Positions 2,656 to 61,540 of a stretch of DNA of 64,000 bases are shown in pieces. The notes below the pieces were generated by a model. It was not told the origin of the DNA. It saw nothing but the letters and a program-made list of their open reading frames with translations, and made no database searches. Origin of the DNA: Escarpia spicata (taxonomy: Eukaryota > Annelida > Polychaeta > Sabellida > Siboglinidae). A program made the position numbers and the translations under genes. The stretch lies in assembly GCA_963995525.1 (NCBI GenBank), contig OZ023206.1:73748506-73812505 (forward strand), in the 5' to 3' direction. Positions within the stretch are counted from its first letter, which is position 1, and each line of letters opens with the position of its first letter.

Positions 2656-2689
2656 TTCCGGCCGTCTTAAAGGGTGTAATGGTGGTCTC

Positions 2690-4647: not shown

Positions 4648-4720
4648 ATTTACAAACGGGGGGCAGCTGACGGTTGTTTCGGGAACCTGGTCAGGTCGTA
4701 AAACGCATCCACACAATGAA

Positions 4721-31395: not shown

Positions 31396-31740
31396 CTAAG
31401 TCTGCTTTAGACGTTTCTTCTTCTTGGCTTTACCAGCCATTGTGTACTTGACAAAGTACTCTCTTTGCAAGTCCCTGGGGACAACACTTTCATCAACCCA
31501 TTCTCGTTTCTTTACATTCCACCATTTTACCTTATACCACAACTTGCCACGGTACCGTTTAGCACAGAGTACCCTCTCTATGGATTTTTGAGAGTCCCCA
31601 CTTTGTGAGTGGTCTGGCTGTCTACCTATTTTGTCCTCATTGACAGTTGAATCGGTCTGACTGTTGTCTGGCCTGTCAGTTGTTGGCTCATTTTGCAGCT
31701 CTGTACTGCTGTTGCCCTTGGCGTCCCGACTCGTAGTACC
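31396..31740 (-). CDS. Integrase C-terminal tail with chromodomain (pol remnant)
   Basis: An open minus-strand frame overlaps the gag end in another frame. Its last part reads RVLCAKRYRGKLWYKVKWW and KKREWVDESVVPRDLQREYF, a chromodomain-like fold segment as found at the C-terminus of chromovirus integrases, where it steers integration to chromatin marks. It is preceded by a Ser/Thr/Asp-rich spacer. The integrase catalytic core is missing. The deletion junction lies at about 31690-31800, where the gag frame gives way to this one. The stop is followed by about 570 bp of untranslated sequence to the 3' LTR. Confidence 0.7.
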   Translation of the reverse strand, partial: GTTSRDAKGNSSTELQNEPTTDRPDNSQTDSTVNEDKIGRQPDHSQSGDSQKSIERVLCAKRYRGKLWYKVKWWNVKKREWVDESVVPRDLQREYFVKYTMAGKAKKKKRLKQT

Positions 31741-32521: not shown

Positions 32522-32753
32522 CTGTTGGACATTTCGTGACGTGCTTGCCCGTGTGTTGTTGGCCGGCCCGTCCGTTTTGGTTTGTTATTTGTTTGTGAAT
32601 ATAACTCTAGTACGTCTCGCGTTTAACCCTCGGTTCGGGCAGATCGTTTCATAAAATTTTGAAAACTACCACACAATGTTACAGTAAATTTTCAGCGGAC
32701 CATCCTTTCCGACCACGTGGATTGCCAATCTAATCGAATTTTGAAGTTCAAAA

Positions 32754-34512: not shown

Positions 34513-34590
34513 ACATATGCAAGTGTGCACACGTGTATGTTCGCGTGCAGAAAATTACATATGTGAATGATATGAAAGCATACAACTTAC

Positions 34591-36190
34591 TCGAGGGTGG
34601 TAACAGGACACTTGTCTTGGCTGAGAATCCACGTGAGAGCTCGCATTTCTGTCGGGAACACCTTGTCGCTGCTGATGCTACTTGGAGCAAGATCCACCAT
34701 CGTTGGATTCTGTGTCTCATGTAAGATGGTTACAACTTTCATTGAGTCATCTTTCAGTACCTCTGCCAGTTTCGCCAGAAGTTCTCGGGGATCCAGTGTG
34801 ATGGCTGATGACAACAGCTGTTCTCTGTATGGTGCAAGCCGCTCGTCTCCTGTCAGTCCCGTGAGAAACGATATGACCACCTCGTACTTGTGGACGGAGG
34901 ATGGATCCTGCAGAAGTGGCCATACTTCTTCAACAGATCCTCTCAGCAGACCAAGGGCTGCAAAGTACTCCTGCAAGGTAAGGTGGTTGAACGACCAACA
35001 TCTCCTGTGCATTGTTGTCGCAATCTTGTCCACTGTACGTGACTGTGTCATGACGCCGCACTGCATGTCATCAGGACTGTCGCAAAGACCAACTCCTTGA
35101 AGGTCTGTTTGATAGAAGATGATCCTGAGAGGATCTGTCTTGACACACTGTCTGGCCAGGTCAGCATACTTCCTGAACGGTTCCGTTATGACCTGGAGTA
35201 TGTCATCCATGTCAGCATCTGTCTTCTTCAAGCGTGGATGAAGCTTCTTTGCTGAGCTAGTGGTTGCACTGACATACAACTGTGTTACTGTCCTGATGAC
35301 TGGTGCATCTCCATCTCCATCAGTGTTCTGTGTGTGTATGGCAGCCAGAGTTTGACACACAAACTGACAGAGGAGAGGGATGTAAGCGAAAGTCACAAGA
35401 TTCAGGTTTTCTTCAAACATCTTTGTAATGAACTGCTCCAGGTCTCTGTTGGCTCCACTGAATATGCTGACATACTCTCTGATGCTGGTTCGGGGAAATC
35501 CGTATAATTCCACCGTTCTCGAAAATGCCTTCATCGGAAGTTCTAGAGTTGGCCGTGATGTGAATACTACTTTAGTGTAAGGCAGCATTTTTTTGCCAAC
35601 AATACTGGACAACAACACAAACAGGTCAACGGGTACAGACCAATCATTCACACATCTTGATTGGTAGACGAAATTGCGAAGCTCATCAAGACCGTCGACC
35701 AAAATCAACATCCGATTGGCGTGGATGGATAGGTATGTCGTTGCAGCATCTTTCTCATCAGGAGGCAATGGCAGTCCACCAAGAAGCAGCTCAGCAAGGC
35801 TCCACTTCTTGTCTTGAATCAGATCCCTCAGTGTAACGATGAAGACATGGTCGAAGACATCATTCCAGAGCTCCCCGGCAGCCCACAGACAGGCAATGTG
35901 TCGCAAAATTGTCGATTTCCCCACACCTCCTTTACCACGGATCAGTAGTTTCTTGGGGGTGACTTTGTCTTCCTTCTTGTCGAAGAGCTCTGGCAACAGC
36001 ACAACAGGGCTATTTTGCATGCGTTTCTCCATGAGAGCGACATCCCGGTGGTTCAAGGTCTCTGGGAGAACCTCTGTCTCGTATTGCTGCAGGCGTAATT
36101 CCACGTAGACCTTGCCCAGGGGTGCATCGCCGTCTTCACTCTCCAGAACCATGTCACTGTATAGTTCTTGTAACACTGTCTTCAGCTGAT
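34591..36190 (-). CDS. NLR NACHT exon (1,600 bp)
   Basis: One large uninterrupted exon of about 533 codons. The acceptor is TTTTGTTATCAG at 36191 and the donor GTAAGT starts at 34590. Counting from the first codon, landmarks are Walker A GKGGVGKST (about 86-94), Walker B LILVDGLDE (about 162-170), a sensor-like VVFTSRP (about 208-214), and downstream helical segments including FAYIPLLCQF and FNHLTLQEYFAALGLL, as in the winged-helix and NLR-associated helices after NACHT. The P-loop Lys and Walker B acidic residues are present, so ATP binding is expected. The exon ends inside the first LRR strand (CPVTTL). The upstream open frame before 36190 is intron. A possible preceding exon ending near 36288 (donor GTATGA, phase 1, 97-bp intron) is compatible in phase but unsupported by domain content. 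Confidence 0.9.
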
Positions 36191-36199
36191 CTGATAACA

Positions 36200-38700
36200 A
36201 AATAAGACAATATGGTAAATCATTAATACAAGACTGTCAGAGTTGCCTGGCTTTGCACAGGATAAAAGGCATTTTCCAGATAAAGTCATACCTATGCCAA
36301 TGGATCCCACAATCCTATGAATGGGAATGTCACCCATCCTCAAATCGTTTGCACTCAAATATAATACCCATGTACCAACAATTATTGTTGGGTTAATTCT
36401 GAATACTGAATTGTACCAAAGACATATTAATATAATAAGACGTTGCACTCGCTGTTTTTCTGTCTTGGCAACCAAGTGTCGCCCTCTTGTAGTCGGATGG
36501 CAGACGGGACAACATGACCGCTTCGTTATGACGGAGGTCGGCAGAAAATAAATAAATAAAAGGAAGTTTGGTCGGTCTGTGCGGCGGCAAGTTGTTCGAG
36601 ATTTTACAACACTTCTATCTTTCTTTTGTTTTCCGACAAACCAGCATAACAGGTATACTGTTTGTAAAACTTTTATATGCTGTCAGAACTAAATTTTTGG
36701 CAACTTATATAAAATGTCATATTAATGTCATGAATACTAAATTTGAGTTTAATTGTATACACTGGTTACAATTATGTTATCGACTGATTGCATACATATT
36801 GTTCTGAAAGTTGTTTTTAATTCAATACTGACGATTTTTTAACGACGAAAGCGGAAAGACCTAGCTATCATCGACCTGTGTACAAGTGTTATTAATAAAT
36901 TATTAAATTACGGCATCTATTGGCGAACATTCATTGCAACACAATGCTTATACCATAAATATGCACTGGCATTAGATGGTCTCTCTAGGAAAAGAGTGTA
37001 TGTGTTACAAAAACACAATGAAGTGAAATGTAGAGCTGGAACTGGGAATCTTGGGGGCTAAGCAATATTTTTGGTGTGGAGCTGGAGATCGAATTAGCCC
37101 GCAATATCTTGGAAAGGGGGGTGCAGTTGGACATTTTGGTCAAGGAGAGGTTCAGTAGGAAGATTTTAGTCAGTCACAAAAGAATCTCAAGGGGAGTGCA
37201 GTTAGATGTTTTGGTGAACTTCAACAACTGTGACTGTGAAAAAATGTCTACAGCACCCGCCTCCCCATCTTTCGATGTCAAGGTCCGACAGTGGAGCTGT
37301 GCTGATGCTCCGGCACTGCCCACCCATTATTTATGTCGTTCCGGCGCCAATGCCAAAACATTTTATTACATCAGTTATTAATTAACCAATAAAATTAAAT
37401 TTGAATAAACTTTCATATTTTCGATTTATGAAAATGGTAGGAACATTTGAGTGATGAACTCCTTACCTGCTAGCTTTTTATTCTTTATATACCACTTATT
37501 ACGCTGGATTAATATAGTTTTAGACAATTAAATGGATAATTAATGTGCCTAATTTATTATTAACACATAATAAAATTATGTTCAATGACGTTTATTTGCG
37601 TGTTATTGAACATTTTAATTTTAGTCTGCATCCTAGCACACACACACTACACCCATACAACATTAAACGGACCTGCAACCCAGCTAGCAGGGGCGCCACC
37701 GCTCAGCAGTGACACAATGCTATTCAGTAGGAGAGGCTAATGACTGACAGGTACTACACATAATGCGTCTTTGATTGTACTGACCTAAACCCAAATGCCC
37801 AACAGCTGAAACCCACCCATTCCCAATATTAAATGTGTTTTAAATTAGGTCCAACCCATATTCCTGCTGCATACAAATTGATCAATTGTAACTGGTCACT
37901 GGCCTAGTATTATGACAAACTTGAACTCTATATCAACAATACTGAAAAGATACAATGTTCTGAAATGTCTAAATGCGCTGGTTGCTACTAAATGCTGCTG
38001 CAGGGTTATGCGTTAAAGATTGGCAAACGTCAATAACATAAGAAGTAATCAAACGTTCTCGATACATCCACAGGCATGTTTGTAAATGGCATTATTATCT
38101 TTACAAAGATATAAGAAAAACATTAATCGTGCCTCTGGAACTCCACATGCAGTTTTTTTTAAATACCTGAGCCCCCAAAGATCTCCACCCTCCCAGATGA
38201 ATTTGGAAAAAAATATAAATGTACGTTTGGGTCCGCTATATGACAGGCACAGTTCCAGCTCAATACATACATGCAAAACTAACAGAGTTATAGATCCACA
38301 GTTTCGTAATGGTTTTTCTTGTACTGTTGTTTTTTTTGGCCCCAAGCAAACCTATTAGTGTCGTGGAGAGGGTGGTCCCTATTTGTCTGGCATCTACTCT
38401 TTGACCTGTCCAGCTTGAGTGACCGTGTCTGGAGCTCCTGCTGGTTTAGTTCTCTTAGTCCTGGTGCTGATTTCCAAAAGGGCATTAAAACAGGAGTTGG
38501 CTGCACCCCCCACCAACATAGGTTTCTTCATATTTTCTTTTTAATTGAACTATAAACTAATAATCTCCAAACATAAAAAAGAAATTAAGGTGTCCATTCT
38601 ACAAGAAAAACTACATTGATCACGAGTGGTTCGCAAAAATTCTCAGAAATAGCTAAAATCACAAAATATGCCTAAATAAAACAATTTTACTTTAATTTCG
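36200..38700. other. Region upstream of the NACHT exon, unassigned
   Basis: Upstream exons of the NLR gene should lie here or beyond, but none is convincing. Around 37119-37215 two strings related to the 22-bp minisatellite family occur (GTGCAGTTGGACATTTTGG and GTGCAGTTAGATGTTTTGG). A minus-strand frame at 38049-38345 and a plus-strand frame at 37076-37381 show no domain. Confidence 0.4.
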
Positions 38701-38708
38701 TTATAAAT

Positions 38709-39917
38709 TCACGGCATAGACGACGACGTCACTGTCTGTGGAAGCGCCGCGGCGAAGTGCACCTGTAGTCGCAGGTTGCCCTTGTCCACGGCGTTGAAAT
38801 GATCTTCATGGCAACGGTCGGCTGCCAGATCGAACCCGAAGGTGTGGCCCGCACCGAAGTCGGCGCGTGCCACGTCATTACAATCGTTTCCGAAAGCCTG
38901 GTAGCTTCTGGCGTACGCACCTACGGCAAAGTTCGGCTGCAGCGGCTTGCTCGGTACCTGTCGACCGTCCACGTAGATGGCGACGAAGTTAATGTTGTTG
39001 TGCTTCGCGTTGAACGGGTTTTTATTGTTGGTCCCGTTGTAGACGTCGTTGTTGATTAGACACAGGACCACCTGATTCGGCAACACGCGGAGGTAGACGT
39101 TCTCGTGAATGTGAGACATTGTCCTCCGCGGGATGGAGAACACCTTGCAGTCGACTCGACGTAGCCGGTACTTGGCCGTCCCCAGCGTCAACGCCTTGAT
39201 GTGTCCGAGCTGTACAGCTGGGATCACTTTGGCCTTTCGCACCTGCAGGAAGGTCTCGATCAGTAGTGTCTTGAAGCCGGGGTCGACACCGGTCGTCATT
39301 AATGCGAAGCCGAAGGCGTACTTGCTTCGCACTAGACGTTCAGCGGATAGCGGTCCTGCATGAACACGTCCACGTGCACGCGTCCCAACATTTCCACTTC
39401 GCTGGTCATCAGTATGTGTGAGCGCCGGTGTTGTAGTTCGTTCGTTATCGGCGCCGATCGACTCCATAGAGCCCGTGGTGTCCTTACACCACAGGCCGCA
39501 CTCGAGCTGCGTCTCCTTGGCTTCGGTCCCGTAACTCAATAGCGTTTCGATGTAGACACGGTACGGGTACGTGATCGTCGACGGCGTCACCAGCGTGCCG
39601 TTCGTCGACACGTCGACTTGATTGAACAGCGAGTGCAGCCAGTTGTTGCCCGGTGCCACGGGACTGTCGGTGTCAAGGTCCGTATCGTTCGCCTTCAACG
39701 TGTACGCTTTCAGGTACAGTCGAACGCTCGACAGGTTCAGGTAGTCGTTCCCAGACACAGGTACGAGAAACTCGATGGGACCACCTGCATCGAGAGTGGT
39801 CAATGGTTGGTAGTCGACCCCTTGACCGCTCTCGATGCTCGTCTGCGTCGTCGGCACTCTGAAAAGGTCCACTTCGGTCTTTAGACACTGGCAGGACTGT
39901 CGGTGAACGGACGCCAT
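38709..39917 (-). pseudogene. Polinton major capsid protein, nearly full length, frameshifted
   Basis: Starting at the ATG at 39917 (MASVHRQSCQCLKTEVDLF), the open frame runs about 402 codons. Conserved stretches include TQTSIESGQGVDYQPL, LNLSSVRLYLKAYTLK, WLHSLFNQVDVSTNGTLV and INNDVYNG near the end, typical of the Polinton double jelly-roll capsid family. Between about 39420 and 39335 the long frame has lost family resemblance while another frame keeps it until a TAG at 39334-39332, so two compensating indels flank a misread patch. The last about 20 residues are also replaced after a shift near 38730. GC content contrasts with the AT-rich flanks. A Lys/Arg-rich frame starting at 40020 overlaps the 5' end and may be the tail of an upstream element gene. 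Confidence 0.82.
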
Positions 39918-40069
39918 TCTTGTAGTCAGAGAATATGTCAATGGTCTCCGGTCGCAGCGTCCGTTCTTTACGACGACGTTTCGGCGTACTGACCGTCGTC
40001 GCCTTGACCAGTCGATGCATTGTGGTAGCGACGTGATGTAGTTAGGTTTCTGTTTGTGTCAAAATGTGT

Positions 40070-40365
40070 AAACAAAAAATGGGCCAAGTGGCCCTGAAGT
40101 CCTTTGGACTAATACGTCTATATGTGACCCCGGCTGACCAAATGAGTGATAAGTCGGAAAAATTGTAACATTGTTTTCTTACATCCTTATAAAGGTTTGG
40201 TAGTGTGCTTTACACGGTTTCAAAAATGTTGACTGCTACAAAACTTGGCGAAGTTATGGAGCATTGAACATGGTAGGGGTCAAAAAGTGAAAATGAAGAA
40301 AACGGCTGTTGAAGTTTTACATTATATATGCAAATGGATTGCATGGAAATATTACATGCACAACA
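40070..40365 (+). repeat. Dispersed repeat, left block, second copy
   Basis: Matches 14655-14950 (see there). It begins about 50 bp beyond the Polinton fragment. Confidence 0.8.
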
Positions 40366-40939
40366 TTCAAATGTGGCACACAGTATGTAATATGTATGTT
40401 ATGTTGCAATGATACACTGGAAGTACAAATGTGCTGCTCCAAAGACTTATCAAGTTATGCCAGATTATGTCTTTATGTGTAAAACTAAGAGGACAGATTA
40501 TCTGAGAGCAAAAGGTAGACTCACTGTTTGACACAGTTTAAAACCTACAGGCAACTGTCCAGTTTAACAGGGGTCTAGTGGCTTAATGCTGTCTGTTGAC
40601 ACAAGCTACTGCCAGTGACCAATTACAGATTAGTCACACTTTCCATCAAACAATAGCAGGCAGAGAATCTTAGCTCCATAGCTGAGTGTAATACACAACC
40701 AGAGCCACCACTGATTCATGGTCAAGTAGATTAGCTCAATGCACCAACTAAGACAATACACAACACTGTGAGTGACAGTGTCCAGAGTGAGGCCTAAGCA
40801 GTGTCATCATTGCTGAATAGATCAATTAAACCTGCCAAGTGGGTGACATTCTGCACAAGTGTTCATTAATCCTTAGTGATTGTTCAGAACACCAGACTGA
40901 CCACATACCTAAACAAAGCGAATGTAATAGGTGAAGAAC
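40366..40939. other. Unassigned; part resembles 41795-41990
   Basis: GGCAACTGTCCAGTTTAACA at about 40550 and GGCAACTGTTCAGTCTAACA at about 41805 head two diverged copies about 1,255 bp apart. No gene seen. Confidence 0.45.
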
Positions 40940-41365
40940 AGGCAGTGTTCAGATAGGGGTATTGGTTGAATTGTATTTGTCTCGACGCAAAAGGCTTTTT
41001 TGTGCCTTCATCGATTATAAGAAAGCATTTGATTTAGTAGACCGGTCCTCCCTGTGGTCTAAGATAATTTCATTCGGTATTAATGGTACTGTGTTGAAAG
41101 TTGTATACAACATGCACAAAAATGCTAAATCATGTATAAATCAGGGCCAGGCTGTGTCAGCCTTCTTCTCATGTGATGTAGAGGTACGGCAAGGAGAAAA
41201 CTTGTGTCCTTTGTTATTTGCTATTTACCTGAATAATTTTGAACACTGTTAGTCACAATTATAACGGACTTGACATGGCAGCTGGTGAAATTTACAACAA
41301 CCTTAGTGATGATGATGTAGACAATGTATGTTCTACTATATGCTGATGACACTAGAATGATTCAA
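40940..41365 (+). mobile_element. Non-LTR reverse transcriptase fragment
   Basis: The open frame 40962-41252 reads LFCAFIDYKKAFDLVDRSSL, then NGTVLKVVYNMHKNAKSC and VEVRQGENLCPLLFAIYLN, that is RT motifs A and B of a LINE distinct from the CR1/L2 copies here. The frame breaks near 41250, and the motif C string VLLYADDTR is readable in another frame at about 41328-41356, so the catalytic Asp pair survives in a broken gene. It is immediately followed by the dispersed repeat block. Clade uncertain. Confidence 0.75.
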
Positions 41366-41383
41366 TCAAATACAGATTTCTTG

Positions 41384-41792
41384 CTTGTGTTTAGCGGAAC
41401 TATGTCAACTCTTCTAATGGTTGACATTTGGTTGTTTCAGGTGTCAACTATATTGTGAATCTGTAATTATTAATCTATATTGATACAATTGATTTACACA
41501 GCACCATGTCTACACAAGGCATGGCAAGTGTAAACAGAACAGTAGAATGTATTTTATATATATAAAGTGTAGGACATTTCACTCTATAGTTGTCCAGAAT
41601 ATAAATTTTCTATGTTTGTCACCTACAGATGACAGCATATTAATTTTCTATGTTTGTCACCTACAGGTTTCTACAGACAATACATTTTTAACCAATAGAC
41701 ACCACAGTCACACCATTTTGTAATATTTAAATGAACATCAAAATAAACACAACTTGCAATTATAGAAAATCAATAGTTTTGAATATACAGTT
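41384..41792 (+). repeat. Dispersed repeat, right block, second copy
   Basis: Matches 15690-16091. An extra short duplication of ATTTTCTATGTTTGTCACCT occurs at about 41607 and 41643. Confidence 0.8.
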
Positions 41793-44030: not shown

Positions 44031-44099
44031 ACCTAATCTTATACCTAACTAGAGTGGGCCATATAGATAGGTATACATTAGTACTGACGTACCTAACTA

Positions 44100-47000
44100 G
44101 AGTGAGCCACAGATGTATACATTAGTATTGTATTGTATGTATTCAGATTCCAACAGGTCCAGTGGACCCAGTAACAGGACTGATAACTGAAACAATACAT
44201 ATAAATAATAAAACAATAATAGAATAATAAAAACAATAAGAACAATAAGGACATAAAAACCACACAATATCAACATCAAATGTACCAGGCAAACATCCGT
44301 TATACATAGAAATGTTTTTTGAATTTAGGATCTAAAGGGTTCTGAAAAATATATCACAAGTTGGATCACTTAAATACAATGTGTTGAACGTAGTCATACA
44401 TCTATTCAAAAAATAATTTTCTAATGCTCATTCTGTTATTAGAAACTCTAAACGGGGTGTAGTTTCGTAGAGATCGTGAAGGACAGTGAAATTGGATAGC
44501 CCCTACCAGATACGACGAGTCTAGTTGGGAGTGCACACACTTGTGTAAAAACATAAGATCTGCAACTTGCCTACGATGTTGAAGGGAAGGTAGTCTAAAA
44601 TGTTGGCAAAGCTCAGGATAACTGTCAGAGGAGTACTGTATTTTGGATATGTAACATAGATATTTCACAATTTTTTTAACTCATTCGATTTTGTAAATAA
44701 ACGTACGTTGCCAGGGATTCCAGATAACACTGCGATACTCCAACTGGTTTCTGCCTAGAGATATATACAAGGATCGCGAAGCCTGTACATTGGTAAAAGT
44801 CAAACTGTTGGTCAATGTGATACCGAAATCTTTGACAGTGGTGAACTTGGGCAGAGACTGGCTTAAAATTGTGTAGTCATAGAATATATACGTTTTTTTT
44901 TAGTGAATGTTAGTTAAACATTATGCAGCATTTCTCAACGTTAGGTTTAAGGTGCCATCTCTCACACCAGACATACAATGTCCAGATCCTTCTGCACCAA
45001 CTGACAATCGGTCACCAACGTACTTTCTTTAAACAAAATTTTATGATCAGCATACAATGACATTTCACATGAATCAACATGATTAGTGAGATCGTTAACA
45101 TACAAGATAAACATAAGTGGTCCAATTTGTGAACCGTGTGGTACACCAGACAACACTGGCTTCCAGTCAGATGTTTTGCCTTCGAGGACCACGTGTTGTT
45201 TTCGGTTGACAACGACTCTATGCATTGCCCGGAATAGCCACATGATCTAAGCTTGTGAATTAACAATTAGTGGCATACTGAATCAAAGGCTTTACTGAAA
45301 TCCAAATAAACAGAATCAACCTGTCAACCACTCTATGCATTGCCCTGAATAGCCACATGATCTAAGCTTGTGAATTAACAATGGGTGGCATACTGAATCA
45401 AAGGCTTTACTGAAATCCAAATAAACAGAATCAACCTGTCAACCACTCTAGGCATTGCCCGGAATAGCCACATGATCTAAGCTTGTGAATTAACAATGGG
45501 TGGCATACTGAATCAAAGGCTTTACTGAAATCCAAATAAACAGAATCAACCTGTCAACCACTCTATGCATTGCCCTGAATAGCCACATGATCTAAGCTTG
45601 TGAATTAACAATGGGTGGCATACTGAATCAAAGGCTTTACTGAAATCCAAATAAACAGAATCAACCTGTCAACCACTCTAGGCATTGCCCGGAATAGCCA
45701 CATGATCTAAGCTTGTGAATTAACAATGGGTGGCATACTGAATCAAAGGCTTTACTGAAATCCAAATAAACAGAATCAACCTGTCAACCACTCTATGCAT
45801 TGCCCGGAATAGCCACATGATCTAAGCTTGTGAATTAACAATGGGTGGCATACTGAATCAAAGGCTTTACTGAAATCCAAATAAACAGAATCAACCTGTC
45901 AACCACTCTATGCATTGCTCGGAATAGCCACATGATCTAAGCTTGTGAATTAACAATGGGTGGCATACTGAATCAAAGGCTTTACTGAAATCCAAATAAA
46001 CAGAATCAACCTGTCGACCACTCTATGCATTGCCCGGAATAGCCACATGATCTAAGCTTGTGAATTACCAATGGGTGGCATACTGAATCAAAGGCTTTAC
46101 TGAAATCCAAATAAACAGAATCAACCTGTCAACCACTCTATGCATTGCCCGGAATAGCCACATGATCTAAGCTTGTGAATTAACAATGGGTGGCATACTG
46201 AATCAAAGGCTTTACTGAAATCCAAATAAACAGAATCAACCTGTCAACCACTCTATGCATTGGCCGGAATAGCCACATGATCTAAGCTTGTGAATTAACA
46301 ATGGGTGGCATACTGAATCAAAGGCTTTACTGAAATCCAAATAAACAGAATCAACCTGTCAACCACTGTATGCATTGCCCTGAATAGCCACATGATCTAA
46401 GCTTGTGAATTAACAATGGGTGGCATACTGAATCAAAGGCTTTACTGAAATCCAAATAAACAGAATCAACCTGTCAACCACTCTATGCATTGCCCGGAAT
46501 AGCCACATGATCTAAGCTTGTGAATTAACAATGGGTGGCATACTGAATCAAAGGCTTTACTGAAATCCAAATAAACAGAATCAACCTGTCAACCACTCTA
46601 TGCATTGCCCGGAATAGCCACATGATCTAAGCTTGTGAATTAACAATGGGTGGCATACTGAATCAAAGGCTTTACTGAAATCCAAATAAACAGAATCAAC
46701 CTGTCAACCACTCTATGCATTGCCCGGAATAGCCACATGATCTAAGCTTGTGAATTAACAATGGGTGGCATACTGAATCAAAGGCTTTACTGAAATCCAA
46801 ATAAACAGAATCAACCTGTCAACCACTCTATGCATTGCCCTGAATAGCCACATGATCTAAGCTTGTGAATTAACAATGGGTGGCATACTGAATCAAAGGC
46901 TTTACTGAAATCCAAATAAACAGAATCAACCTGTCAACCACTCTATGCATTGCCCGGAATAGCCACATGATCTAAGCTTGTGAATTAACAATGGGTGGCA

Positions 47001-50000
47001 TACTGAATCAAAGGCTTTACTGAAATCCAAATAAACAGAATCAACCTGTCAACCACTCTATGCATTGCCAGGAATAGCCACATGATCTAAGCTTGAGAAT
47101 TAACAATGGGTGGCATACTGAATCAAAGGCTTTACTGAAATCCAAATAAACATAATCAACCTGTCAACAACTCTATGCATTGCCCGGAATAGCCACATGA
47201 TCTAAGCTTGTGAATTAACAATGGGTGGCATACTGAATCAAAGGCTTTACTGAAATCCAAATAAACAGAATCAACCTGTCAACCACTCTAGGCATTGCCC
47301 GGAATAGCCACATGATCTAAGCTTGTGAATTAACAATGGGTGGCATACTGAATCAAAGGCTTTACTGAAATCCAAATAAACAGAATCAACCTGTCAACCA
47401 CTCTATGCATTGCCCGGAATAGCCACATGATCTAAGCTTGTGAATTAACAATGGGTGGCATACTGAATCAAAGGTTTTACTGAAATCCAAATAAACAGAA
47501 TCAACCTGTCAACCACTCTATGCATTGCCCGGAATAGCCACATGATCTAAGCTTGTGAATTAACAATGGGTGGCATACTGAATCAAAGGCTTTACTGAAA
47601 TCCAAATAAACAGAATCAACCTGTCAACCACTCTATGCATTGCCCGGAATAGCCACATGATCTAAGCTTGTGAATTAACAATGGGTGGCATACTGAATCA
47701 AAGGCTTTACTGAAATCCAAATAAACAGAATCAACCTGTCAACCACTCTATGCATTGCCCGGAATAGCCACATGATCTAAGCTTGTGAATTAACAATGGG
47801 TGGCATACTGAATCAAAGGCTTTACTGAAATCCAAATAAACAGAATCAACCTGTCAACCACTCTATGCATTGCCAGGAATAGCCACATGATCTAAGCTTG
47901 AGAATTAACAATGGGTGGCATACTGAATCAAAGGCTTTACTGAAATCCAAATAAACAGAATCAACCTGTCAACCACTCTATGCATTGCCCGGAATAGCCA
48001 CATGATCTAAGCTTGTGAATTAACAATGGGTGGCATACTGAATCAAAGGCTTTACTGAAATCCAAATAAACAGAATCAACCTGTCAACCACTCTATGCAT
48101 TGCCCTGAATAGCCACATGATCTAAGCTTGTGAATTAACAATTAGTGGCATACTGAATCAAAGGCTTTACTGAAATCCAAATAAACAGAATCAACCTGTC
48201 AACCACTCTATGCATTGCCCTGAATAGCCACATGATCTAAGCTTGTGAATTAACAATGGGTGGCATACTGAATCAAAGGCTTTACTGAAATCCAAATAAA
48301 CAGAATCAACCTGTCAACCACTCTAGGCATTGCCCGGAATAGCCACATGATCTAAGCTTGTGAATTAACAATGGGTGGCATACTGAATCAAAGGCTTTAC
48401 TGAAATCCAAATAAACAGAATCAACCTGTCAACCACTCTATGCATTGCCCTGAATAGCCACATGATCTAAGCTTGTGAATTAACAATGGGTGGCATACTG
48501 AATCAAAGGCTTTACTGAAATCCAAATAAACAGAATCAACCTGTCAACCACTCTAGGCATTGCCCGGAATAGCCACATGATCTAAGCTTGTGAATTAACA
48601 ATGGGTGGCATACTGAATCAAAGGCTTTACTGAAATCCAAATAAACAGAATCAACCTGTCAACCACTCTATGCATTGCCCGGAATAGCCACATGATCTAA
48701 GCTTGTGAATTAACAATGGGTGGCATACTGAATCAAAGGCTTTACTGAAATCCAAATAAACAGAATCAACCTGTCAACCACTCTATGCATTGCTCGGAAT
48801 AGCCACATGATCTAAGCTTGTGAATTAACAATGGGTGGCATACTGAATCAAAGGCTTTACTGAAATCCAAATAAACAGAATCAACCTGTCGACCACTCTA
48901 TGCATTGCCCGGAATAGCCACATGATCTAAGCTTGTGAATTACCAATGGGTGGCATACTGAATCAAAGGCTTTACTGAAATCCAAATAAACAGAATCAAC
49001 CTGTCAACCACTCTATGCATTGCCCGGAATAGCCACATGATCTAAGCTTGTGAATTAACAATGGGTGGCATACTGAATCAAAGGCTTTACTGAAATCCAA
49101 ATAAACAGAATCAACCTGTCAACCACTCTATGCATTGGCCGGAATAGCCACATGATCTAAGCTTGTGAATTAACAATGGGTGGCATACTGAATCAAAGGC
49201 TTTACTGAAATCCAAATAAACAGAATCAACCTGTCAACCACTGTATGCATTGCCCTGAATAGCCACATGATCTAAGCTTGTGAATTAACAATGGGTGGCA
49301 TACTGAATCAAAGGCTTTACTGAAATCCAAATAAACAGAATCAACCTGTCAACCACTCTATGCATTGCCCGGAATAGCCACATGATCTAAGCTTGTGAAT
49401 TAACAATGGGTGGCATACTGAATCAAAGGCTTTACTGAAATCCAAATAAACAGAATCAACCTGTCAACCACTCTATGCATTGCCCGGAATAGCCACATGA
49501 TCTAAGCTTGTGAATTAACAATGGGTGGCATACTGAATCAAAGGCTTTACTGAAATCCAAATAAACAGAATCAACCTGTCAACCACTCTATGCATTGCCC
49601 GGAATAGCCACATGATCTAAGCTTGTGAATTAACAATGGGTGGCATACTGAATCAAAGGCTTTACTGAAATCCAAATAAACAGAATCAACCTGTCAACCA
49701 CTCTATGCATTGCCCTGAATAGCCACATGATCTAAGCTTGTGAATTAACAATGGGTGGCATACTGAATCAAAGGCTTTACTGAAATCCAAATAAACAGAA
49801 TCAACCTGTCAACCACTCTATGCATTGCCCGGAATAGCCACATGATCTAAGCTTGTGAATTAACAATGGGTGGCATACTGAATCAAAGGCTTTACTGAAA
49901 TCCAAATAAACAGAATCAACCTGTCAACCACTCTATGCATTGCCAGGAATAGCCACATGATCTAAGCTTGAGAATTAACAATGGGTGGCATACTGAATCA

Positions 50001-52760
50001 AAGGCTTTACTGAAATCCAAATAAACATAATCAACCTGTCAACAACTCTATGCATTGCCCGGAATAGCCACATGATCTAAGCTTGTGAATTAACAATGGG
50101 TGGCATACTGAATCAAAGGCTTTACTGAAATCCAAATAAACAGAATCAACCTGTCAACCACTCTAGGCATTGCCCGGAATAGCCACATGATCTAAGCTTG
50201 TGAATTAACAATGGGTGGCATACTGAATCAAAGGCTTTACTGAAATCCAAATAAACAGAATCAACCTGTCAACCACTCTATGCATTGCCCGGAATAGCCA
50301 CATGATCTAAGCTTGTGAATTAACAATGGGTGGCATACTGAATCAAAGGTTTTACTGAAATCCAAATAAACAGAATCAACCTGTCAACCACTCTATGCAT
50401 TGCCCGGAATAGCCACATGATCTAAGCTTGTGAATTAACAATGGGTGGCATACTGAATCAAAGGCTTTACTGAAATCCAAATAAACAGAATCAACCTGTC
50501 AACCACTCTATGCATTGCCCGGAATAGCCACATGATCTAAGCTTGTGAATTAACAATGGGTGGCATACTGAATCAAAGGCTTTACTGAAATCCAAATAAA
50601 CAGAATCAACCTGTCAACCACTCTATGCATTGCCCGGAATAGCCACATGATCTAAGCTTGTGAATTAACAATGGGTGGCATACTGAATCAAAGGCTTTAC
50701 TGAAATCCAAATAAACAGAATCAACCTGTCAACCACTCTATGCATTGCCAGGAATAGCCACATGATCTAAGCTTGAGAATTAACAATGGGTGGCATACTG
50801 AATCAAAGGCTTTACTGAAATCCAAATAAACAGAATCAACCTGTCAACCACTCTATGCATTGCCCGGAATAGCCACATGATCTAAGCTTGTGAATTAACA
50901 ATGGGTGGCATACTGAATCAAAGGCTTTACTGAAATCCAAATAAACAGAATCAACCTGTCAACCACTCTATGCATTGCCCTGAATAGCCACATGATCTAA
51001 GCTTGTGAATTAACAATGGGTGGCATACTGAATCAAAGGCTTTACTGAAATCCAAATAAACAGAATCAACCTGTCAACCACTCTAGGCATTGCCCGGAAT
51101 AGCCACATGATCTAAGCTTGTGAATTAACAATGGGTGGCATACTGAATCAAAGGCTTTACTGAAATCCAAATAAACAGAATCAACCTGTCAACCACTGTA
51201 TGCATTGCCCGGAATAGCCACATGATCTAAGCTTGTGAATTAACAATGGGTGGCATACTGAATCAAAGGCTTTACTGAAATCCAAATAAACAGAATCAAC
51301 CTGTCAACCACTCTATGCATTGCCCGGAATAGCCATATGATCTAAGCTTGTGAATTAACAATGGGTGGCATACTGAATCAGAGGCTTTACTGAAATCCAA
51401 ATAAACAGAATCAACCTGTCAACCACTCTATGCATTGCCAGGAATAGCCACATGATCTAAGCTTGTGAATTAACAATGGGTGGCATACTGAATCAGAGGC
51501 TTTACTGAAATCCAAATAAACAGAATCAACCTGTCAACCACTCTATGCATTGCCCGGAATAGCCATATGATCTAAACTGGTGAATTAACAATGGGTGGCA
51601 TACTGAATCAGAGGCTTTACTGAAATCCAAATAAACAGAATCAACCTGTCAACCACTCTATGCATTGCCCGGAATAGCCATATGATCTAAGCTTGTGAAT
51701 TAACAATGGGTGGCATACTGAATCAAAGACTTTACTGAAATCCAAATAAACAGAATCAACCTGTTTCTTGTTGTCAATAAATTCAGATATGGCGTTCAAG
51801 TAACTAGCTAGATTAGATACTGTAGTTCTACACGTCACAAATCCGTGTTGGCTGCCCGACATTGTGTTACGCACATGCTCATACAATGAGTCGAATACGA
51901 CTTTCTCAAAAACTTTGCTAAATAGCGGTAAGAGAGAGATAGGTCTGTAGTTGCACACATTTCGTTTATCTCCCTTCTTGTACACAGGAACAACATTTGC
52001 TCTTTTAAAACAAATTGGAAAAGTTCCACATTTTAAGGACACCTTAAAAGCGTAGTTAGTGGACCTGCTAATTCGGCAGCACATTCCCTAAGGATTACAC
52101 CTGATATATTGTCAGGTCCGCATGCTTTGTTTACATCGGTGGTTCTTAGTACTCCGATGACATCATCATAAGACACATTGATATTAGTCATTGAGTCGGA
52201 TTGACAGGAGGGAATTATTGGATAAACAAGGTTATCTACTAATGCAAAGACAAATTCGAAGTGGTCAGAAAATAGTTCTGCTGGACTGTCAGCTGGACTG
52301 TCTGCCTCAGTGCCTTTATATACCATTGAGTTAGGAAGTGTTACATTAGTTTGTTTGCTTTAGGCAAAACTAAATATACATTTGGTGTTTTGTTTGACGG
52401 ACTTTTCAATTTCCGATATGTAGTCACAATACCTTTGTCTTTTAAGTTCCTTAAAAGTAGTTCGTAGTTCAGAAAATACTTGGTAATCAGATAACGAATG
52501 TGAGCGTTTATGTGTGCGGTGTCTTTCTCGTTCAATGTTGCGATCATATCGTTATCATATCATACTGGGTATTTACATCCACGAATGCAGATACGAGGAA
52601 CGCATTCGTTTATGGCAGCATACAAAATGTCATAAAATAGATCAAAACTCTCGTCAATGTCAGTAGTGTCCGTGAGAAATGATACAAGACAATAAGTGTC
52701 TTAGGCGACAAAAGTCTGCTTTGCGATAGTTCTAACCTACTTTTTGTTCCTAGGGTCAAC
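44100..52760 (-). mobile_element. LINE whose RT gene contains a 6.5-kb internal satellite expansion
   Basis: Minus-strand order: linker (about 52760-52330, several stops); RT start (52326-52033, KACGPDNISGVILREC); RT (52084-51641) with VVPVYKKGDKRNVCNYRPIS, QHGFVTCRTT and VDSVYLDFSKVFDSVCH; then the 115-bp array; then RT motifs B and C (45243-44962) with VLSGVPHGSQIGPLMFILYV and YADHKILF (second Asp changed to His); C-terminal region (44668-44402, LPSLQHRRQVADLMFLHKCV); and a 3' UTR with AATAATAAAACAATAAT-type tail near 44200. Both halves join naturally across the array, so the array expanded inside a pre-existing LINE copy. The element is 5' truncated. Confidence 0.85.
45215..51764. repeat. 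115-bp satellite array, about 57 units, derived from LINE RT motif A
   Basis: The unit includes TGCATTGCCCGGAATAGCCA, CATGATCTAAGCTTGTGAAT and GGCATACTGAATCAAAGGCT, with a HindIII site in nearly every unit. Period is exactly 115 (for example 45327 to 45442). Reversed, the unit encodes QVDSVYLDFSKAFDSVCHPL then LIHKLRSCGYSGQCIEWL, that is RT motif A of the surrounding LINE. Since 115 is not a multiple of three, the frame changes every unit. Rare variants recur exactly 2,875 bp (25 units) apart, for example at 46016 and 48891, 46261 and 49136, 47471 and 50346. Units at the right edge are the most diverged. Confidence 0.97.
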
Positions 52761-52925: not shown

Positions 52926-53217
52926 GTTGACAACTGGAATACTTCTTATGGATTTTGAGATTGACCAACCCTTTTGTTTTGATGCACCTCTGAGCTTGGT
53001 TTCTATTATTGAATATAACATATTCTGTTCAGTTTGAGAGATAAGTCTTAAACTATTTGAGGGGAGTACTCCTTATTCCATAATATTCAAGTTTATGTAA
53101 TAAGATTTGGTGATCAATTGTAACAAATGCTTTACTCATATCCAGGAAAACACTAAGAACCGAGTCTTTTTTTTAGAGCTTTTGTGACATCACTAATAAG
53201 TGCGGTTATAGCATTTA

Positions 53218-56261: not shown

Positions 56262-58735
56262 TGACAGCCATTATTGGGCCAATGCAGTTCTTGCAATGGT
56301 AAACCAACGATAGCCATTATTGGGCCAATGCAGTTCTTGCAATGGCAAACCAACAATAGCCATTATTGGGCCAATGCTGTTCTTACAATGGCAAACCAAC
56401 GATAGCCATTATTGGGCCAATGCTGTTCTTACAATGGCAAACCAACGATAGCCATTATTGGGCCAATGCAGTTATTGCAATGGCAAACCAACGATAGCCA
56501 TTATTGGGCCAATGCAGTTCTTGCAATGGCAAACCAACAATAGCCATCATTGGACCAATGCTGTTCTTGCAATGGCAAACCAACGATAACCATCATTGGA
56601 CCAATGCTGTTCTTGCAATGGCAAACCAACGATAGCCATTATTGGGCCAATGCAGTTCTTGCAATGGCAAACCAACGATAGCCATCATTGGACCAATGCT
56701 GTTCTTGCAATGGCAAATCAACGATAGCCATCACTGGACCAATCCTGTTCTTGCAATGGCAAACCAACGATAGCCATCATTGGACCAATGCTGTTCTTAC
56801 AATGGCAAACCAACGATAGCCATCATTGGACCAGTGCTGTTCTTGCAATGGCAAACCAACGATAGCCATTATTGGGCCAATGCAGTTCTTGCAATGGCAA
56901 ACCAACGATAGCCATCATTGGACCAATTCAGTTCTTGCAATGGCAAACCAACGATAGCCATCATTGGACCAATGCTGTTATTGCAATGGCAAACCAACGA
57001 TGGCACACCAACGACAGCCATTATTGGGCCAAAGCTGTTCTTGCAATGGCAAACCAGCGATAGCAATTATTGGGTCAATGCAGTTCTTGCAATGGCAAAC
57101 CAATGATAGCCATTATTGGGCCAATGCAGTTCTTGCAATGGCAAACCAACGATAGCCATCATTGGGCCAAAGCTGTTCTTGCAATGGCAAACCAACGATA
57201 GCCATCATTGGGCCAATGCTGTTCTTGCAATGGCAAACCAACAATAGCCATCATTGGACCAATGCTGTTCTTGCAATGGCAAACCAATGATGGCAAACCA
57301 AAGATAGTCATCATTGGACCAATGTTGTTCTTGCAATGGCAAACCAACGATAGCAATTATTGGGCCAATGCAGTTCTTGCAATGACAAACCAACGATAGC
57401 CATCATTGGACCAATGCAGTTCTTGCAATAGCAAACCAACGACAGCCATTATTGGGCCAAAGCTGTTCTTGCAACGGCAAACCAACGATAGCCATCATTG
57501 GGCCAATGCTGTTCTTGCAATGGCAAACCAACGATAGCCATCATTGGACTAATGATGTTCTTGCAATGGCAAACCAACGATAGCCATTATTGGGCCAATG
57601 CATTTCTTGCAATGGCAAACCAACGATAGCCATCATTGGACCAATGCTGTTCTTACAATGGCAAACCAACGATAGCCATTATTGGGCCAATGCAGTTATT
57701 GTAATGGCAAACCAACGATAGCCATTATTGGGCCAATGCAGTTCTTGCAATGGCAAACCAACGATAGCCATTATTGGGCCAATGCAGTTCTTGCAATGGC
57801 AAACCAACAATAGCCATCATTGGACCAATGCTGTTCTTGCAATGGCAAACCAACGATAGCCATTATTGGGCCAATGCAGTTCTTGCAATGGCAAACCAAC
57901 GATAGCCATCATTGGACCAATGCTGTTCTTGCAATGGCAAACCAACGATAGCCATCATTGGACCAATGCTGTTCTTGCAATGGCAAACCAACGATAGCCA
58001 TTATTGGGCCAATGCAGTTCTTGCAATGGCAAACCAACGATAGCCATCATTGGACCAATTCAGTTCTTGCAATGGCAAACCAACGATAGCCATCATTGGA
58101 CCAATGCTGTTATTGCAATGGCAAACCAACGATGGCACACCAACGACAGCCATTATTGGGCCAAAGCTGTTCTTGCAATGGCAAACCAACGATAGCCATC
58201 ATTGGGCCAAAGCTGTTCTTGCAATGGCAAACCAGCGATAGCCATTATTGGGCCAATGCAGTTCTTGCAATGGCAAACCAACGATAGCCATCATTGGGCC
58301 AAAGCTGTTCTTGCAATGGCAAACCAACGATAGCCATCATTGGGCCAGTGCTGTTCTTGCAATGGCAAACCAACAATAGCCATCATTGGACCAATGCTGT
58401 TCTTGCAATGGCAAACCAATGATGGCAAACCAAAGATAGTCATCATTGGACCAATGTTGTTCTTGCAATGGCAAACCAACGATAGCAATTATTGGGCCAA
58501 TGCAGTTCTTGCAATGGCAAACCAATGATGGCAAACCAAAGATAGTCATCATTGGACCAATGTTGTTCTTGCAATGGCAAACCAACGATAGCAATTATTG
58601 GGCCAATGCAGTTCTTGCAATGACAAACCAACGATAGCCATCATTGGACCAATGCAGTTCTTGCAATAGTTCTTGCAATGGCAAACCAACGACAGCCATT
58701 ATTGGGCCAAAGCTGTTCTTGCAACGGCAAACCAA
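56262..58735 (+). repeat. 46-bp minisatellite, about 53 copies, with a 1,132-bp higher-order duplication
   Basis: The unit contains AATGGCAAACCAACGATAGC and CATCATTGGACCAATGCTGT; most units carry ATTGG and CCAAT as a near-palindrome (ATTGGGCCAAT). Rare variants recur 1,132 bp apart: TGGCACACC at 57001 and 58133, GACCAATTCAG at 56921 and 58053. Short insertions (for example GATGGCAAACCAAAGATAG) are also shared. Translations of about 62-65 residues in both directions are periodic artefacts. Confidence 0.95.
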
Positions 58736-59264
58736 TGATGGCAAACCAATGACAGCCATTATTGGGTCAATGATGTTTTGATAATGGTAAACCAATGATG
58801 ACAAATGCATGGCAGACATTATTGGGCCAATGATATTTTTCAATGGCAAGTCAATAATGACAAACCAATGACAAACTATCGTTGGCCCAATCATGGTTTC
58901 TGCAGCGAGCATTGTTCCAATGAGATTTGCAAGCTGGGATGTGAATGCTACACCACCATTTTAATTGTACTTTGTTTTTATCTGTCTCATGTATCGTTAT
59001 GATTTTATTGATTTATTTATTATGTATTTGTTTTTTATGTGATGACGACTGAGTGGCTCGGCCATCAGAAATAGTATATACTAAGCATGTTACTGAGTGA
59101 AAATAAAATGATCAATCAGAGGAATTGCAAACTTGACAGGCACAATCATGTAGCAAAATCACAGTGGTCAATGACATGTTATTTGTTCAAAAACTAGTGA
59201 CGAAAGCTGCTACAAATGTGACAATCAAGAAACTTAGTAAACGCTAATAATAATATTTAATAGG
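58736..59264. other. Degenerate edge of the 46-bp array and unassigned sequence
   Basis: Decayed repeat copies continue to about 58890. Then comes a stretch with GACTGAGTGGCTCGGCCATC and AATAAAATG at about 59045-59112 that resembles a LINE 3' UTR, though I cannot name the family. Confidence 0.4.
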
Positions 59265-59394
59265 CTATTTAACAAGATTTAACAAGATTGCCGTCCAGAG
59301 CTGTAAGCTCCAGACGGCATGCGTACAAGGAAGCCTTTGGCTTATTGAGAGTCCAACAATTTTCCACCTGCGTATAACCCGCCCTCGCCAGATG
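59265..59394 (-). mobile_element. CR1-like LINE 3' tail fragment
   Basis: TTTAACAAGATTTAACAAGA, then CCAGAC-type sequence, AAGGAAGCCTTTGGCTTATT and GAGAGTCCAA match the 3' end of the minus-strand LINE at 22600-22735. Only about 130 bp is present, ending exactly where the 76-bp array starts. Confidence 0.8.
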
Positions 59395-61540
59395 GTCAGT
59401 GTTAGAGGAACGGCCTCAGTAGACACAGAAACACATCAAGTACCAGTGACATGCTCCAACAGGTCCAGTGGTCAGTGTTAGAGGAACGGCCTCAATAGAC
59501 ACAGAAACACATCAAGTACCAGTGACATGCTTTAACAGGTCCAGTGGTCAGTGTTAGAGGAACGTCCTCAATAGACACAGAAACACGTCAAGTACCAGTG
59601 ACATGCTGCAACAGGTCCAGTGGCCAGTGTTAGAGGAACGGCCTCAATAGACACAGAAACACATCAAGTACCAGTGACATGCTCCAACAGGTCCAGTGGC
59701 CAGTGCTAGAGGAACGGCCTCAATAGACACAGAAACACATCAAGCACCAGCGACATGCTCCAACAGGTCCAGTGGCCAGTGCTAGAGGAACGGCCTCAAT
59801 AGACACAGAAACACATCAAGTACCAGCGACATGCTCCAACAGGTCCAGTGGCCAGTGTTAGAGGAACGGCCTCAATAGACACAGAAACACATCAAGTACC
59901 AGCGACATGCTCCAACAGGTCCAGTGGCCAGTGTTAGAGAAACGGCCTCAATAGACACAGAAACACATCAAGTACCAGCGACATGCTCCAACAGGTCCAG
60001 TGGCCAGTGTTAGAGGAACGGCCTCAATAGACACAGAAACACATCAAGTACCAGCGACATGCTCCAACAGGTCCAGTGGTCAGTGCTAGAGGAACGGCCT
60101 CAATAGACACAGAAACACATCAAGCACCAGCGACATGCTCCAACAGGTCCAGTGGCCAGTGCTAGAGGAACGGCCTCAATAGACACAGAAACACATCAAG
60201 CACCAGCGACATGCTCCAACAGGTCCAGTGGCCAGTGTTAGAGAAACGGCCTCAATAGACACAGAAACACATCAAGTACCAGTGACATGCTCCAACAGGT
60301 CCAGTGGCCAGTGCTAGAGGAACGTCCTCAATAGACACAGAAACACATCAAGTACCAGCGACATGCTCCAACAGGTCCAGTGGTCAGTGTTAGAGGAACG
60401 GCCTCAATAGACACAGAAACACATCAAGTACCAGCGACATGCTCCAACAGGTCCAGTGGCCAGTGCTAGAGGAACGTCCTCAATAGACACAGAAACACAT
60501 CAAGTACCAGCGACATGCTCCAACAGGTCCAGTGGCCAGTGTTAGAGGAACGTCCTCAATAGACACAGAAACACATCAAGTACCAGCGACATGCTCCAAC
60601 AAGTCCAGTGGCCAGTGCTAGAGGAACGGCCTCAATAGACACAGAAACACATCAAGTACCAGCGACATGCTCCAACAGGTCCAGTGGCCAGTGTTAGAGG
60701 AACGGCCTCAATAGACACAGAAACACATCAAGTACCAGCGACATGCTCCAACAGGTCCAGTGGCCAGTGTTAGAGAAACGGCCTCAATAGACACAGAAAC
60801 ACATCAAGTACCAGTGACATGCTCCAACAGGTCCAGTGCTAGAGGAACGTCCTCAATAGACATAGAAACACATCAAGTACCAGCGACATGCTCAAACAGG
60901 TCCAGTGGCCAGTGTTAGAGGAACAGCCTCAATAGACACAGAAACACATCAAGTACCAGTGACATGCTCCAACAGGTCCAGTGGTCAGTGTTAGAGGAAC
61001 GGCCTCAATAGACACAGAAACACATCAAGTACCAGTGACATGCTCCAACAGGTCCAGTGGCCAGTGCTAGAGGAACGTCCTCAATAGACACAGAAACACA
61101 TCAAGTACCAGCGACATGCTCCAACAGGTCCAGTGGCCAGTGTTAGAGGAACGGCCTCAATAGACACAGAAACACATCAAGTACCAGTGACATGCTCCAA
61201 CAGGTCCAGTGACCAGTGTTAGAGGAACGGTCTCAATAGACACAGAAACACATCAAGTACCAGTGACATGCTCCAACAGGTCCAGTGACCAGTGTTAGAG
61301 GAACGGCCTCAATAGACACAGAAACACATCAAGCACCAGTGACATGCTCCAACAGGTCCATTGGTCAGTGCTAGAGGAACGGCCTCAATGGACACAGAAA
61401 CACATCAAGCACCAGTGACATAATCCAACAGGTCCAGTGGCCAGTGTTAGAGGAACGGCCTCAATAGACACAGAAACACATCAAGTACCAGTGACATGCT
61501 CCAACAGGTTCAGTGGTCAGTGTTAGAGGAACGACTCTGC
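59395..61540 (+). repeat. 76-bp satellite array, about 28 units, derived from LINE ORF2 C-terminus
   Basis: Units contain CAGTGTTAGAGGAACGGCCT, CAATAGACACAGAAACACAT and GACATGCTCCAACAGGTCCA; the period is 76 (59395, 59471 and so on). The unit encodes HRNTSSTSDMLQQVQWSVLE plus ER, the segment that in the adjoining LINE fragment continues into LCSARLAMLYKI at 61530-61570. The array is therefore an expansion of LINE coding sequence that runs into its source on the right. A 76-bp unit is not a multiple of three, so frame is not kept. Confidence 0.95.

Follow-up and report, generated by a model that had tools for sequence, protein, structure and literature searches.

We find that a 115-bp segment of a LINE reverse transcriptase (RT) coding region has been expanded in place into a large tandem array in Escarpia spicata, and that two collinear sister copies of the region carry smaller arrays with the same unit. 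Very probably, a single LINE-internal tandem duplication of 115 nt occurred before these copies split, and each array then changed in its own way to reach 57, 7 or 3 units, as part of a region-wide tendency to expand. The large array lies in the window, by which we mean the whole 64,000-nucleotide stretch of DNA analysed, together with the two halves of its parent element:

45210..51764, minus strand: tandem array, 57.0 units of 115 bp, each the RT motif A segment of a LINE (TRF, unit table, junction count)
51765..52735, minus strand: 5' side of the LINE, which holds the upstream RT motifs and runs without a break into unit 1 in LINE order (RVT_1, DNA homology to single-copy LINEs, junction)
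44125..45209, minus strand: 3' side of the LINE with RT motifs B and C and a C-terminal remnant (RVT_1, DNA homology to single-copy LINEs)
45205..45214, minus strand: joint of the last unit with the LINE 3' side, 13 nt missing (comparison with single-copy LINEs)

The array is reported by TRF with a period of 115, 57.0 copies, 98% matches and 0% indels, and when read one unit at a time it likewise resolves into 57, all exactly 115 bp long, each with 0-4 differences from the consensus and no indels. The copy number and period given in the initial annotation (about 57 copies at 45215..51764) therefore stand, but the start moves to 45210. The 57 units comprise 18 distinct forms, with neighbouring units differing on average by ~1.8 bases, and the consensus unit contains a HindIII site. 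The minus-strand translation of the unit, QVDSVYLDFSKAFDSVCHPLLIHKLRSCGYSGQCIEWL, bears out its assignment to the RT motif A segment. The units run head to tail inside a degenerate LINE, which we class as a non-LTR retrotransposon by its RVT_1 domain within a dispersed repeated element. Pfam RVT_1 is found on the 5' side (51641-52087, E 2.4e-11, profile 5-101) and on the 3' side (44962-45246, E 2.2e-7, profile 86-162) and thus, as had been proposed, the array is flanked by the preceding RT motifs on one side and by motifs B and C on the other.

We considered whether the repeats persist because they have a function, for instance as a repeated RT-motif peptide or in a structural DNA role, as the low variation among units might indicate. 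However, recent expansion already predicts low variation, the copy number ranges from 57 to 7 to 3 between regional copies, and 115 bases make 38 codons plus one base, such that the reading frame is broken, rotates and runs into stops. A functional role is therefore very improbable, and a coding function of the array is rejected because of the rotating frame.

Elsewhere in the same genome, the LINE carries one unit. Scoring 40 of 214 candidates yielded 37 single matches, and in all 19 of these that were read there is one unit per LINE; the loci are spread over many contigs, with the unit in coding context. Similarly, in relatives from protein databases the reading passes straight through one unit as ordinary RT. 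Since LINE copies elsewhere carry a single unit, these observations show that the array was born inside the LINE, and confirm that one unit is native to the element and the rest a local expansion. The array qualifies as a transposable element (TE)-derived tandem repeat, since its unit shares homology with sequence inside such an element (at 19 of 19 single-copy places) and has expanded head to tail in place within the parent copy. The reverse history, in which the LINE acquired an older 115-bp satellite or landed in one, is contradicted both by the single-copy loci and by the protein relatives, as well as by the occurrence of the array joint at no other genomic place; nothing was found in its favour, and we reject it as exceedingly improbable.

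The parent sequence had been described as preserved on both sides of the array. This is so on the LINE 5' side, where no loss of sequence relative to single-copy LINEs was seen at the joint with the first unit, but not on the 3' side, which is frameshifted relative to the last unit and has lost 13 nt. These 13 nt, of the CAGTCTTACCTTG type in single-copy LINEs, lie between two TTG triplets; they are present at full length in 17 of the 19 single-copy places, are absent from the window and from the copy on C3, and appear as CAGTCTTAACTTG in the copy on C631. As C631 retains them, their loss was not needed for the birth of the array, and we rejected it as part of the founding event. The TTG triplet on either side suggests an ordinary microhomology deletion.

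The founding joint itself is blunt (GTTG^ACAGG), as the parent has the 115 bp in one uninterrupted stretch and, on our reading, no bases are shared between the two ends of the unit. A possible CAG microhomology at this joint is offset by one base and was rejected, and the joint was therefore called blunt. Thus, the short direct repeats expected to flank the founding duplication under the Haber-Louis model, as that model is described in PMC3389668, are not found here. Nor is the incomplete terminal unit of the slipped-strand model, as set out in the same source, since the terminal units of all three arrays are complete (57.0, 7.0 and 3.0 units).

The distribution of the unit-unit junction in the genome indicates how often such an array arose. 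Allowing up to 3 mismatches, the junction has 64 matches in the 1.06-Gb genome, compared to 0 for the reversed control, so that chance is not at issue. All matches fall in three places, with 56 in the window (on C2, 73.79-73.80 Mb), 6 on C631 (at 459 kb) and 2 on C3 (at 327 kb), exactly n-1 for 57, 7 and 3 units. Over tens of kilobases, non-LINE sequence included, these places are collinear and represent copies of one region, with identities mostly of 94-99% (~1-5% apart, depending on the stretch). That collinear copies of one region carry the three arrays shows that these descend from a single birth and have since diverged in copy number.

The initial annotation had seen here the birth of a satellite family with a dated origin. 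Outside the three collinear copies we find the multi-unit junction nowhere in the genome, and all 64 junctions lie at these copies rather than at several unrelated loci; the array is not a satellite family. The date survives as a relative one, with a birth before the split of copies now ~1-5% apart. In the limited collection of literature searched, with papers elsewhere outside its scope, we found no report of siboglinid satellite DNA. The presence of the array at three places might also be explained if a LINE RNA in which the repeats were already present had been retrotransposed. We regard this as almost certainly wrong and reject it, because the collinearity extends beyond the LINE, and there is no further junction in the genome; the three places are explained by segmental copies or alleles.

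The relationships among the three copies are not uniform along the region. A right-flank tree of 19 sequences (2 of 21 loci were dropped for short matches) groups the window, C631 and C3 together with a support of 0.955; the left-flank tree includes four sequences only. The window is closer to C631 than to C3 in both the right flank (99.3% versus 94.6%) and the left flank (97.95% versus 95.78%), but in the non-LINE stretch 34600-41600 it is slightly nearer to C3 (97.3%) than to C631 (96.9%). Moreover, flank identity pairs the window with C631, while the 13-nt loss pairs it with C3, a conflict to be explained by a TTG-TTG deletion that occurred twice independently, by lineage sorting or by sequence exchange among the copies.

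A distance of ~0.68 Mb separates the array in the window from the end of C2, and the C3 copy is located ~0.33 Mb into its contig; neither the terminal 9.3 kb of C2 nor the initial 9 kb of C3 contains a TTAGGG array. Viral contigs, scanned by pattern and by protein, gave no match. A contig scan with P0031 returned one relative, at 46%, in a MAG contig. For the NACHT gene in the window, named relatives occur in Lamellibrachia satsuma (63%) and Ridgeia piscesae (56%), which points to a siboglinid tubeworm as the likely source.

Three segments of the array in the window bear on its growth:

45232..48106, minus strand: 25-unit block, first copy (unit table, self-comparison)
48107..50981, minus strand: 25-unit block, second copy (unit table, self-comparison)
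51305..51764, minus strand: LINE-5' end of the array, 3 of 4 units still ancestral at unit position 84 (unit table)

As assembled, a 25-unit block has been duplicated: 2,911 bp match without a mismatch at a lag of 2,875 (25 units). Such exactness, in an array in which neighbouring units differ by nearly two bases, would also be expected if the assembly had wrongly lengthened a shorter true array, either to give the 57 copies as a whole or at least the exact second block, and the other two regional copies have only 7 and 3 units. However, arrays with the same joint were assembled on C631 and C3 as well, and therefore an array as such is real. Furthermore, other arrays in the window have block duplications whose copies have diverged, for instance that with a 27-bp unit (lag of 584, 97.7% identical), unlike what a duplicated piece of assembly would give. 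We consider an artefact of this kind rather unlikely, although well within consideration, and favour genuine growth of the array.

Within the array, the variant A84G is found in 54 of the 57 units, with the ancestral base retained in units 1, 2 and 4 in LINE order. On C631, 3 of the 7 units are identical to the majority sequence of 17 single-copy places (2 of the 19 were omitted, as their unit is not 115 bp). Units with A84 and with G84 occur in all three arrays, and thus at least two unit types are older than the split of the copies. The variants common to pairs of arrays are mixed: C12A and C94A are found in the window and C3, T40C in C631 and C3, and G35A in the window and C631.

The 115-bp unit is not the only sequence of the region that has changed in number. 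Eight further repeat units also vary between regional copies, such that all nine units counted are unequal in at least two copies. Three of these are single or nearly so in the window:

52065..52111, minus strand: 47-bp coding segment of the same LINE, single in the window; 9 tandem copies in C3
44042..44131, no strand assigned: 48-bp unit, one full and a diverged second copy with small gaps; 197 copies in C3
53900..54013, no strand assigned: one 94-bp unit, the first 20 bases of which recur at its opposite end; 49 copies in C3

The numbers of matches in the window, C631 and C3 are 1, 1 and 9 for the 47-bp unit, 1, 1 and 197 for the 48-bp unit (C631 has a partial second copy and so is not strictly single), and 1, 1 and 49 for the 94-bp unit. 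The 48- and 94-bp repeats, unlike the blunt-jointed 115-bp unit, had pre-existing direct repeats. The share of sequence taken up by arrays is 25.2%, 40.1% and 38.6% in the three regional copies, compared to 5.3% in 92 kb surrounding 18 LINE loci with a single unit, although these loci are short (5-7 kb) and long arrays are cut. The emphasis placed on the RT motif was thus misleading, as the region also holds repeats that expanded from a different part of this LINE and from unrelated sequence. With eight other units also varying in number, the LINE identity of the array looks incidental.

These observations are best explained by the following history. In a degenerate LINE copy, a contiguous 115-nt stretch of the RT coding region was tandemly duplicated once only, in the ancestor of the three regional copies, perhaps by end joining or a template switch. 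As the units were nearly identical, they could then have recombined or slipped differently in each copy, through unequal exchange, gene conversion or slippage, to give 57, 7 and 3 units; in the window, A84G took over 54 of 57 units and, as assembled, the whole 25-unit block was duplicated recently. The cause may be the region-wide tendency to tandem expansion, with nothing particular to the RT motif. A stronger proposal, which we advance tentatively, as it may well be wrong, is that the region hosts a sequence-independent process by which ordinary DNA, and with it LINE coding sequence, is repeatedly converted to tandem arrays, in some cases through blunt joints. It would be fast enough that three homologous copies only ~3% apart differ in the number of every repeat counted, with three of the repeats expanded in one copy alone and single or nearly so in the other two.

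LINE-derived tandem repeats are already known as a phenomenon, and the present array is a new, well-documented case. The review PMC9659126 names as satellite DNAs chicken HinfI (CR1, partial ORF2), Phodopus PROsat (L1 ORF2) and Phoca Pvc20 (L1 ORF2), in which, as here, the tandem unit is similar to the coding part of a LINE. The present array, however, is limited to one locus and its sister copies, is still inside its parent LINE, and has single-copy LINEs available in the same genome. The maize repeats CRM1TR and CRM4TR, derived from centromeric retrotransposons, resemble it as local retrotransposon-derived arrays that are homogenised locally, and according to PMC3648361 short direct repeats for a single founding recombination were likewise not detected; they are derived from LTR/UTR sequence of centromeric Ty3/gypsy elements, whereas the present array is LINE coding DNA in collinear copies with 57, 7 and 3 units. 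In humans, PMC3389668 reports at least 7,276 TE-derived tandem repeats (23% of minisatellites/satellites), which similarly start inside TEs, mostly without flanking direct repeats, and then duplicate locally; here the genome is that of an annelid, and the comparison spans three collinear copies. The Tetris foldback transposon and an emerging satellite of Drosophila virilis (PMC4079207) likewise illustrate a transposable element as the source of building blocks for tandem arrays, but Tetris is a DNA transposon rather than LINE coding sequence.

The first step in the birth of a satellite is rarely seen, because the parent and the intermediate states are lost. In this one genome, the parent is preserved in single-copy LINEs, alongside parallel expansions nearby and arrays at several stages: 7 units near the ancestral sequence (3 of them the parent majority), 3 units that are small in number and diverged, and 57 units in a large, recently grown array. 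The birth and growth of the array can thus be traced via its sister copies. Starting points with known parental sequence inform the open question of mechanism, since the two mechanisms postulated for human TE-derived repeats account for only 6% of them, as given in PMC3389668. If a region-wide, sequence-independent process is indeed at work, this region would be a natural laboratory for the beginnings of satellites.

In the array at 45210-51764 of the window, a 115-bp unit is repeated in tandem 57.0 times; read unit by unit, every copy is exactly 115 bp long and differs from the consensus at 0-4 positions, with 18 distinct forms in all. On the minus strand the unit translates as QVDSVYLDFSKAFDSVCHPLLIHKLRSCGYSGQCIEWL, the stretch of RT motif A, and Pfam RVT_1 matches the sequence flanking the array on either side. 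Each unit spans 38 codons and one further base, so the reading frame rotates between successive units; the frames across the array run into stops.

The single-copy state is found both among protein relatives and elsewhere in the genome. The upstream RT piece has 218 protein-database relatives, at least 20 of which are 72-84% identical among the 120 matches listed, and a second search using one relative (P0031) as query yielded 363 matches (120 listed). In 18 of 19 close relatives chosen from both match lists, the YSGQ-type motif of the unit is present exactly once; the remaining protein (P0242) begins past this motif, and a second unit was not found in any of the 19. We also searched the window's own genome (1,060,511,957 bases, 1,097 contigs; the window lies at C2:73748506-73812505) with a two-unit query. 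Scores were obtained for 40 of its 214 candidates, and the counts are therefore lower bounds: at least 69 matches, including at least 29 full-length matches at three places, at least 3 partial ones bordering these places, and at least 37 single matches outside them. The 18 loci retrieved for reading contain 19 of the 37 single-match places, and all 19 have one unit only (its length is 113 bp in L016 and 119 bp in L028, which carries a small insertion). Past the unit, a 13-nt segment of CAGTCTTACCTTG type and then TCAACCG-type sequence follow in 17 of the 19, while two (L012 and L014) end within the 13-nt segment. The 5' flank of L016 is unrelated sequence. With the unit excluded, matching pieces of these LINEs mostly share 84-94% identity with the LINE of the window (79-97% by piece); identity within the unit is biased upward, since the loci were selected by similarity to it. 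In the parent LINE the unit forms one contiguous stretch, and the joint between units, GTTG^ACAGG, has zero bases common to the two ends.

A 25-nt pattern spanning this joint (≤3 mismatches) matched the whole genome 64 times, with 56 matches on the window's contig (C2), 6 on C631 and 2 on C3; the reversed pattern, used as a control, had 0 genome matches. These counts are 57-1, 7-1 and 3-1, in agreement with the TRF counts of 7.0 units on C631 and 3.0 on C3. The three array places are copies of one region. In the stretches compared, homology to the window runs from ∼16.4 kb to 3.7 kb past the window end for C631 and from ∼7.5 kb to 59,393 for C3, in inverted order; the matches are interrupted at arrays and at other points. 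C3 collinearity ends where a 76-bp array starts. Long matching pieces are mostly 94-99% identical (one C631 piece, 91.8%), and identity in the non-LINE stretch 34600-41600 is 96.9% for window-C631, 97.3% for window-C3 and 96.6% for C631-C3. As there are three distinct copies, they are not two alleles of a single locus, although one pair may be alleles.

As the parent sequence for comparing the units, we used the majority sequence of 17 single copies, having excluded L016 and L028 for length. C631 units 1, 2 and 4 are identical to it, and the mean number of differences is 0.86 for C631 units, 1.89 for window units and 3.00 for C3 units, compared to 1.18 for the single copies themselves. At unit position 84, both the ancestral A and the alternative G occur in all three arrays; G is found in 54 of 57 window units, and A is kept in 3 of the 4 closest to the LINE 5' side, a distribution consistent with an ancestral array that contained two or more unit types. 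The remaining shared variants are mixed among pairs of copies, and loss of the 13-nt segment is common to the window and C3, yet LINE-flank similarity groups the window with C631. We read these conflicting patterns as exchange between copies or as sorting of old variants; either fits. Growth of the window array includes a duplicated 25-unit block: 45232-48142 and 48107-51017 match over 2,911 bp without mismatch, so that the duplication either happened recently or arose in the assembly.

Other units in the region also differ in copy number.

Copies of nine units in the window, C631 and C3, in that order (matches covering ≥75% of the unit)
115-bp unit: 57, 7, 3
47-bp unit: 1, 1, 9 (array at 2742-3164 of locus L011, C3:326241-326663, derived from a different coding part of the LINE copy that holds the 115-bp array)
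48-bp unit: 1, 1, 197 (array at C3:328435-337880)
94-bp unit: 1, 1, 49
80-bp unit: 1, 10, 2
32-bp unit: 13, 39, 3
46-bp unit: 51, 55, 28
76-bp unit: 28 (59388-61533), 223 (C631:434403-451294), none (C3 not collinear there)
52-bp unit: 4, none in the C631 stretch searched, 8

The 47-bp unit, a second coding segment of the LINE that holds the 115-bp array, is truly single in the window (52065-52111) and C631. By our reading of the alignments, the 47- and 80-bp joints share 0-1 bases. The 48- and 94-bp arrays grew out of pre-existing short repeats, because the window and C631 already hold such repeats: for the 94-bp unit, 20 bases that recur at a distance of 94 bases in both; for the 48-bp unit, one full copy plus a diverged second one in the window (44042-44131), which have a 15-base direct repeat in common at a spacing of one period, and a full copy followed by a partial second in C631. 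Long blocks are repeated at large lags in other window arrays (2664-5912 and 56266-58739); examples are lag 1132 in a 46-bp array and lag 584 in a 27-bp array, the latter a diverged block duplication of 97.7% identity.

The share covered by arrays (period ≥10, ≥4.5 copies) is 25.2% in the window, 40.1% in the C631 stretch and 38.6% in the C3 stretch, compared with 5.3% in 92 kb surrounding the 18 single-copy loci, where the control pieces are short. The scaffold ends are poor in arrays (0% of the last 9.3 kb of C2, 2.3% of the first 9 kb of C3); array richness is therefore not tied to the extreme ends of the scaffolds.

The window also contains the following features.
31691-32584, minus strand: Retrotrans_gag ORF
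34590-36236, minus strand: NACHT-domain ORF, 549 aa, with its closest named relatives in siboglinid tubeworms
38712-40058, minus strand: ORF without Pfam match
452-919, plus strand: ORF without Pfam match
53077-53202, minus strand: RT motif A fragment of a different LINE, directly upstream of the array-bearing LINE

The two ORFs without Pfam matches look like a putative Polinton-type capsid and protease.

Tandem repeats derived from transposable elements, including satellites derived from LINE ORF2, are already known from earlier reports (PMC9659126, PMC3648361, PMC3389668). The unusual feature of this case is that a series of array states occurs within one genome.
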